From assembly GCA_003279055.1 (NCBI GenBank), contig QCBP01000003.1, positions 1 to 64,000 on the forward strand: a stretch of DNA of 64,000 bases. The letters are read 5' to 3'. This DNA is from Prochlorococcus sp. AG-347-I21 (GTDB lineage: Bacteria; Cyanobacteriota; Cyanobacteriia; PCC-6307; Cyanobiaceae). This document shows, piece after piece, positions 8,438 to 42,998 of the stretch (its first letter is position 1; each line of letters begins with the position of its first letter). The notes below the pieces were generated by a model. That model ran no database searches. It had not been told where the DNA came from and saw only the letters and a list, made by a program, of their open reading frames with translations. Position numbers and translations under genes: made by a program.

Positions 8438-8448
8438 GCAAAAAAAAA

Positions 8449-8470
8449 CCACTTAAAAGTGGCCTTTTTA
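8449..8470 (-). terminator. Intrinsic terminator of the DUF4278 unit
   Basis: Read on the minus strand: CCACT, loop TTTA, AGTGG, then a run of eight or nine T. It lies ~25 bases after the stop of the 33-residue peptide gene, so the riboswitch, peptide and terminator make a compact transcript of about 250 bases. Confidence 0.8.
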
Positions 8471-8487
8471 TTTATTAGATAAATGAA

Positions 8488-8589
8488 CTAGCTTGTATAA
8501 ACTTTACCTCTGTAAGTTAGTTCTTTATGCTGCTTTTTAGCTGCTTCTTTGTTCTGGACATACTTTTGTCCTCTGTAAATTAGAGTCAT
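8488..8589 (-). CDS. DUF4278-like short peptide, 33 aa
   Basis: A 33-residue basic peptide (start ATG) with two copies of one motif: LIYRGQKYV near the start and LTYRGKVY at the end. The YRGxxY motif is that of DUF4278, a family of tiny cyanobacterial proteins. It lies eight bases after a glutamine-II riboswitch, matching the arrangement that gave the 'downstream-peptide' RNA its name, and is closed by a terminator. Expression should therefore follow cellular glutamine, meaning nitrogen status. By analogy with small glutamine-synthetase-inactivating factors it might act in nitrogen control, but that is only an inference. Confidence 0.8.
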   Translation of the reverse strand: MTLIYRGQKYVQNKEAAKKQHKELTYRGKVYTS

Positions 8590-8596
8590 TTTTTAA

Positions 8597-8689
8597 GCTC
8601 CGGTTTCGCTCAAGTCCCCGTTCCATGGCTTAAGTCGATTTGCGGCTTGCAAAATGCAAGTTGAACGTTTTAGTAGCGGTTGCTACAAA
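8597..8689 (-). promoter_or_regulatory. Glutamine-II riboswitch (downstream-peptide RNA)
   Basis: Read on the minus strand from ~8689. First comes a leader hairpin GTAGC-AACC-GCTAC. The core has CGTTC (P1 5' side), hairpin CTTGCA-TTT-TGCAAG (P2), the conserved segment CGCAAATCGA, CTTAAG, and GGAACGGGG, whose GAACG pairs back with CGTTC. CTTGAG then pairs with CTTAAG as the pseudoknot. This order matches the glutamine-II / downstream-peptide aptamer known from marine cyanobacteria and cyanophage. The pseudoknot lies close to the start of the peptide gene, so ligand binding can plausibly control translation. I checked the helices by eye only. Confidence 0.88.
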
Positions 8690-8894
8690 TTTATAATAAC
8701 ATCTATTAAAATTATTTGTCTAGGTTTTTAATAAATAAACTTAATATATTAATGATAGATTAGGTTTCTGATAAAAATACTTATCATAATCCCGGCTTAA
8801 TTTCTCACAGGTTACATTTTGTGCGTTTTTGAGAAGTATTTTTTATTTAATGAACTTTTAAATGTAAAATTCTTAAGATTATAAAATTTGTTTT

Positions 8895-33246: not shown

Positions 33247-33274
33247 AAAAATAAGTTAGAGTTAGATTACTGGA

Positions 33275-33460
33275 TCTTTGGTTAAGTTCTTCTTTATGTG
33301 CTCTGATCTGACTCTATTTCGACATGAGGAGACTGTCGTGATGCGGTAGTAAACCGATCTTGTAATCGGAAACGAAAGCCCACTTTGAATCCTCTTCTGG
33401 CATTTCCAGGTCGATGCAGCAGAGAACTGACGGGGATCCGGTGCTACCTATCAAAAAGCT
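33275..33460 (+). ncRNA. ssrS: 6S RNA (RNA polymerase regulator)
   Basis: A non-coding segment clearly richer in GC than its surroundings. It contains an apical hairpin CCGAT-CTTGTA-ATCGG (around 33354-33369), complementary outer strands (for example TCTC with GAGA around the central part) and a strong terminator. Position directly after purK and length near 180 bases fit cyanobacterial 6S RNA, which binds RNA polymerase during dark or stationary phases. The ends are approximate; I could not fold it. Confidence 0.75.
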
Positions 33461-42463: not shown

Positions 42464-42998
42464 AAGTTTTGGACTAAAAATTATTTAAAAGACAGTTGAA
42501 ATCATAGTGATCCCAAAAAAAATTTGTGGATATTTTTTTCTTAAAAGAAGATAATATTTTATTTTGCACATAGAAATTCAAATTTAATCAACATATTGTG
42601 GAAAACCCTGTTGAAAAACGCTTAAAAAGTGGATAACTCTTCGGGAGCATTATCAAAACAAGCTTTTCTGAAAAAATTTTTAAGTATTAATACTTCATCA
42701 AAAAAAATAAAATATAGTTTAAAAAGTAACATAATCTCTTGTTATAACTGTGGGATCATTACTTTTTAAAAAAGATAAATTTTCTATACCAGAAGCTCAT
42801 GTTGATAAAAAATTTAAAAAGATTTTTCTTCATGATGTATCAAATTGAAAATTAAAGTGAAGAAAAATCAATCAAAACTTGAAATTTTTAATTTTTATCT
42901 TAGGTGAGTAAAAATTGTTTAATTCGGTTTTCTCTATGCAAATATTTCTCAAACCTAAACCTAATCAAATAGGGTTGATTAAGTTAAAAAAATCTTAA
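42464..42998. other. Intergenic region with DnaA-box-like sites
   Basis: 535 bases lacking a convincing gene. A GTG-started 32-codon frame at 42750 is possible but unsupported. The main signals are three nine-base sites resembling DnaA boxes, described separately. Confidence 0.4.
42525..42636 (+). promoter_or_regulatory. Cluster of three DnaA-box-like 9-mers
   Basis: TGTGGATAT (42525-42533), TGTGGAAAA (42597-42605) and AGTGGATAA (42628-42636), all in one orientation within 112 bases. The reverse of the second, TTTTCCACA, is the form reported for cyanobacterial DnaA boxes. Surrounding DNA is very AT-rich. Binding is unproven. Confidence 0.35.

Follow-up and report, generated by a model that had tools for sequence, protein, structure and literature searches.

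A Yfr6-type glutamine-II riboswitch unit with a putative NtcA operator in Prochlorococcus and its reduced counterparts in T7-like cyanophages

The locus and its relation to Yfr6

The window, the whole stretch of DNA analysed here, comprises positions 1 to 64,000 of contig QCBP01000003.1 of Prochlorococcus sp. AG-347-I21; few photosynthetic cells on Earth rival those of its genus in abundance. A short unit lies on its minus strand, in which a promoter, a palindromic element, a glutamine-II (Gln-II) aptamer, a reading frame for a 33-aa DUF4278 peptide and an intrinsic terminator follow one another (Table 1). The present genome has five Gln-II elements. From 37 Prochlorococcus genomes, about 120 loci with such an element were sorted by their products into five classes: class A with the 33-aa peptide of the window (28 loci), class B with a 57-aa DUF4278 product (28 loci), class C with a 109-aa product (7 loci), class D with another 33-aa YRG peptide that is below Pfam detection (26 loci), and class E with a 56-aa product containing PYRRSVF (30 loci). 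Two further RNAs in the window exceeded their Rfam thresholds, 6S RNA (33264-33448, plus strand) and Yfr17 (42486-42752, plus strand).

Table 1. Features of the Gln-II unit, in window coordinates
Feature	Position	Strand	Evidence
-35 element TAGACA	8717..8722	-	promoter scan; 10/12 consensus bases together with the -10 element
-10 element TATTAT, extended (TG before)	8693..8698	-	promoter scan
Transcription start	8686	-	inferred from MED4
GTAGCAACCGCTAC, putative NtcA-type operator GTA-N8-TAC	8673..8686	-	sequence and leader comparison
Glutamine-II aptamer	8609..8670	-	Rfam RF01704, 67.9 bits
Shine-Dalgarno GGAG	8598..8601	-	sequence
33-aa DUF4278 peptide MTLIYRGQKYVQNKEAAKKQHKELTYRGKVYTS	8488..8589	-	Pfam PF14105, 32.4 bits; dN/dS
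Intrinsic terminator, hairpin and U9	8440..8467	-	folding; kept in orthologs

The signals of the unit are conserved: the -35 element is kept as GACA across class A leaders, a TATAAT-like -10 element is kept in classes A to D, and the Shine-Dalgarno (SD) sequence is GGAG throughout class A except for one member with GGGG. The terminator hairpin (8467 to 8444, followed by a T run; -9.3 kcal/mol, z -3.2) was found in 28 of 28 class A orthologs, with compensating changes. A preliminary description, made from the sequence, had correctly seen a self-contained unit of Gln-II aptamer, DUF4278 peptide and terminator that should report nitrogen status, but it left the strand unstated and missed both the identity of the locus and the NtcA box discussed below. 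It had also put the ATG eight bases after the aptamer; the distance is 19 nt, and the 8 nt are those between SD and ATG.

The unit is orthologous to Yfr6 of Prochlorococcus, and the locus is therefore already known, because Yfr6 was published in 2005 and 2008. Axmann et al. (2005) described Yfr6 of MED4 as a 244-nt RNA near nrdJ (complement 627729..627972) in which a 33-aa ORF follows the first 97 nt and whose expression falls upon nitrogen depletion (PMC1242208), Steglich et al. (2008) added an antisense RNA, Yfr14, and the suggestion of a toxin-antitoxin system (PMC2518516), and Weinberg (2010) connected Yfr6 with the downstream-peptide motif (PMC2864571). A Gln-II match at 627894-627956 (minus strand) of our comparison genome, equated with MED4 by position, falls inside Yfr6, and the mapped start of Yfr6 at 627972 is 16 nt before the aptamer (627956), on the first G of GTAGC. 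The unit in the window shares with Yfr6 of MED4 and SS120 (PMC1242208, PMC2518516) the 33-aa ORF, which differs from that of MED4 at 3 of 33 positions, the terminator and, as in MED4, the location beside the gene of the B12-dependent ribonucleotide reductase NrdJ (TIGR02505, 854 bits); by projection from MED4, it would also share the start at the G of GTAGC and a transcript of about 245 nt (244 nt in MED4). It differs in being from another strain, and the papers of 2005 and 2008 treated Yfr6 as a non-coding RNA, before the riboswitch was assigned. The unit itself is thus well described already, and its function is better understood than the preliminary description assumed; the additions made here are the reading of the palindrome as an NtcA site and the design shared by hosts and phages.

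Aptamer and peptide

The covariance-model search for the downstream-peptide/Gln-II family, which the preliminary description had proposed as a check, gave a clear match to RF01704 from 8670 to 8609 (67.9 bits against a gathering threshold of 33, E 2.8e-14, model positions 1-60 of 60). All three stems quoted earlier are present, but their names had been permuted, since in the nomenclature of the crystal structure (PMC6698751) CGTTC/GAACG (8667-8663 and 8623-8619) is the pseudoknot (PK), CTTGCA/TGCAAG (8660-8655 and 8651-8646) is P1 and CTTAAG/CTTGAG (8634-8629 and 8614-8609) is P2. The covariance-model alignment further places the conserved CGCA linking strand beside them, so that the window aptamer has every element of the crystallised RNA (Prochlorococcus sp. 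RS01) and lies as far from its start codon. In this genome, however, it is the leader of class E to which the RS01 RNA is almost identical; this leader precedes the other, 56-aa product and has no NtcA box.

Relatives of this RNA bind glutamine (PMC6316151, PMC6698751), and a 2018 review, which ties Gln-II to DUF4278, presents a Prochlorococcus downstream-peptide aptamer as a glutamine ON switch (PMC6316151); by analogy, the window aptamer would bind L-glutamine and act in the same direction. Folding did not reveal a convincing alternative structure sequestering the SD, and the exposure of SD and AUG was the same whether folding was unconstrained or had the PK strands blocked. For the linking strand, an attractive partner would be the linker or SD, by CCG..UCG with CGA..CGG in class A and by GCAG with CUGC in class D; we do not claim this pairing, because its duplex energies surpass those of shuffled linkers by only about 1.2 standard deviations, and not in class B. 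Another candidate, CTTAAGC/GCTTAA beside the SD, was rejected as it is not conserved.

The 33-aa peptide matches DUF4278 (PF14105) with 32.4 bits (cut-off 25.3), over profile positions 1-34 of 57 only, and it contains the two copies of YRGxxY noted in the preliminary description (YRGQKY and YRGKVY). Purifying selection acts strongly on the class A peptide: dN/dS is about 0.05 (mean dN 0.040, mean dS 0.82; 28 orthologs), and third codon positions account for 26 of the 46 variable sites. A search of the PDB with the peptide found no relative. The AlphaFold models are of low confidence for both the window peptide (pLDDT 59) and the class B peptide (pLDDT 61), and the former gives only a hint of two beta hairpins, one at each YRGxxY, separated by a helix. 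The peptide would most likely act by binding a protein partner; the earlier statement that this effector is unstudied holds at the biochemical level in the literature searched.

Two other classes deserve mention. The class C ORF begins only 6 nt from the aptamer, behind a leader with the NtcA box, and its 109-aa product has no YRG motif; the first 70 residues of this product gave no Pfam match. Class E, whose aptamer is the one nearly identical to the crystallised RNA, is without GTA-N8-TAC; at a comparable distance, many of its members carry a sequence that includes GTTA.

A putative NtcA operator and the alternatives

The palindrome GTAGC-N4-GCTAC (8686 to 8673) occurs once in the window and in none of 100 shuffles; GTA-N8-TAC alone is common, with 13 occurrences in the window against 7 expected. 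Among the 89 leaders of classes A to D, in which the element starts 15-17 nt before the aptamer and stands a few bases behind the conserved -10 element (in MED4 its first base is the mapped start itself), the GTA at bases 1-3 and the TAC at bases 12-14 are invariant, and 88 leaders have G-C at pair 4/11, the remaining one A-T. GTA-N8-TAC is the consensus of NtcA, and the genome encodes NtcA (364 bits), so that both the site at the promoter and the regulator, as expected for a member of the NtcA regulon, are present. An NtcA motif has also been noted at PMM1846, the gene of a DUF4278 paralog (review PMC6316151). Taken together with the position of the element, these observations lead us to read it as an NtcA operator, with good confidence. 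Because the palindrome covers +1 to +14, NtcA bound there should repress. Calibration of the box on a known activated promoter fails in this genome, because the glnA promoter is without an exact GTA-N8-TAC; the ntcA promoter is likewise without one.

The preliminary description had taken the same palindrome for an additional 5′ hairpin. The palindrome is there, and as RNA it folds into a perfect hairpin (-4.9 kcal/mol) exactly at +1, where it might protect the 5′ end or form part of the riboswitch; moreover, 89% of the leaders preserve pairing at 5/10, with C-G, U-A and U-G forms among them. Yet 10 of the 89 leaders break this pair, whereas both outer triplets are constant around a fixed N8 spacing with a variable interior, the pattern of a site for a dimeric protein. 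Phage Gln-II units are without the element, and the riboswitch therefore does not need it, and Yfr6 in MED4 has a half-life of only about 2 min (PMC1242208). We thus consider an RNA hairpin unlikely and prefer the NtcA operator, which would give the unit a second nitrogen input.

On this basis, the unit is probably an autonomous two-input mini-gene for nitrogen sufficiency, with NtcA-repressed transcription and glutamine-activated translation. The sigma-70 promoter would start an RNA of about 245 nt at 8686; under nitrogen starvation, NtcA with 2-oxoglutarate would bind GTA-N8-TAC and block transcription, and under nitrogen-replete conditions the RNA would be made and glutamine, as in another Prochlorococcus member of the family, would stabilise the Gln-II pseudoknot and turn on translation of the 33-aa peptide, whose two YRGxxY motifs would then most likely bind a protein partner. 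How nitrogen assimilation is controlled in Prochlorococcus without the usual inhibitors of glutamine synthetase (GS) is an open question (PMC6316151), and the operator reading makes Yfr6 a simple gene with two signals, 2-oxoglutarate and glutamine, that is directly testable.

A known parallel to this design would make the peptide a GS inactivating factor like IF17, the product of gifB. In Synechocystis, gifB combines a DUF4278 product, a glutamine ON switch and an NtcA-repressed promoter, the same control logic, with an aptamer of another class (the type 1, or glnA, riboswitch; PMC6316151). The same review regards IF regulation as ruled out in the Prochlorococcus clade. DUF4278 corresponds to the N-terminal part of IF17, and since the 33 residues cover only its positions 1-34, the GS-inhibiting C-terminal region is missing. 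The single GlnA of this genome, aligned to Synechocystis GS (3NG0), has N instead of E419 and Q instead of N456 and keeps R459, the three GS docking residues reported by Saelices 2015. Because the inhibitory domain is absent and two of the three docking residues are changed, canonical GS inactivation by the peptide appears unlikely, and we regard an IF17-like role as quite doubtful. PirA, a PII-interacting small protein made under nitrogen excess from an NtcA-repressed gene, resembles the 33-aa peptide in these respects, but is without detected sequence relation to it, and homology was rejected because PirA is reported absent from marine picocyanobacteria (PMC8092223). A proposal of 2008 would give the ORF a secondary place: Yfr6 might act primarily as regulatory RNA, or form a toxin-antitoxin pair together with Yfr14, an RNA that overlaps it on the opposite strand and whose level reportedly increases in MED4 early after infection by phage (PMC2518516). 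The dN/dS of the peptide and the concentration of changes at third codon positions speak against this, as do the well-spaced SD and the occurrence of YRG ORFs behind Gln-II at unrelated loci and in phages; the remaining RNA is accounted for by operator, riboswitch and terminator. A primarily regulatory RNA therefore seems very improbable, and a translated peptide under the two inputs is the reading that we retain.

Related units in cyanophages

Searches of phage records with the DNA and protein of the window unit gave no match, and the link to phages was seen only with the aptamer descriptor, which matched at least 120 viral contigs in IMG/VR. Among 80 of these, 73 have a YRG peptide ORF about 20-28 nt behind the pattern; the peptides are most often 16-20 aa in length, e.g., MTVTYVYRGVAYTKIIK, and the others are mostly of 29-39 aa with a leading charged helix. 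All of 20 sampled viral aptamers passed the Rfam threshold. Found with the same descriptor, the NtcA box is present in 71 of 80 host contigs but only 2 of the 80 viral contigs, being absent from the other 78 (Fisher p 3e-32; as these loci are mutually related, the value is no more than descriptive).

T7-like cyanophages carry stripped-down copies of the Yfr6-type unit. Gln-II was found in all eight isolates examined (P-SSP7, P-GSP1, 9515-10a, P-SSP2, S-RIP2, S-TIP37, NATL1A-7 and S-CBP1; 45.7-59.2 bits). It is accompanied by a YRGxxY micro-ORF and preceded by psbA, and wherever this can be seen in the record, the capsid gene comes after it; in P-SSP7 the unit is at AY939843.2 20522-20640. The micro-ORF, mostly unannotated in these records, encodes 16-18 aa in five isolates (one 17-aa phage peptide is MKVTFVYRGVAYTRVIG), 34 aa in S-CBP1 and 38 aa in S-TIP37, and in S-RIP2 it lies within an annotated ORF of 79 aa. 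Glutamine riboswitches have been mentioned in T4-like cyanophages and a methylophage (PMC9964418, PMC9602691, PMC9004378); no mention of one in a podovirus was found in the literature searched, outside which lie Klahn 2018 and Ames and Breaker 2011. The phage comparison pares the effector down to one YRGxxY motif, and a short synthetic peptide could serve as bait. Tentatively, with somewhat less than even confidence, we suggest that Gln-II with a YRGxxY micro-peptide is a currency shared by picocyanobacteria and their viruses, in which hosts would use NtcA and glutamine, and the glutamine-only version of 16-18 aa between psbA and capsid gene might tune phage late genes or nitrogen physiology via the same target.

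Other phage loci showed variants. The 71-kb Synechococcus phage S-CRES3 has, at gp46 (774-938 of the extracted locus), a Gln-II element (52 bits) before a 32-aa peptide, MNHLQLIKAAQLKAAALKSAQLAHKPSSRGIV, whose sequence is similar to the beginning of host class E products, and then a terminator-like hairpin. T4-like cyanophages encode a 41-aa peptide with two YRGVK motifs (PHM1_181 of P-HM1; 795-920 of the extracted locus), and no Gln-II match was found at this locus at E 1 or better. In several cyanopodoviruses including P-SSP7, a conserved hairpin resembling a tRNA T arm, GGGAGGTGCRAGTCCTCCC, stands just behind the micro-ORF.
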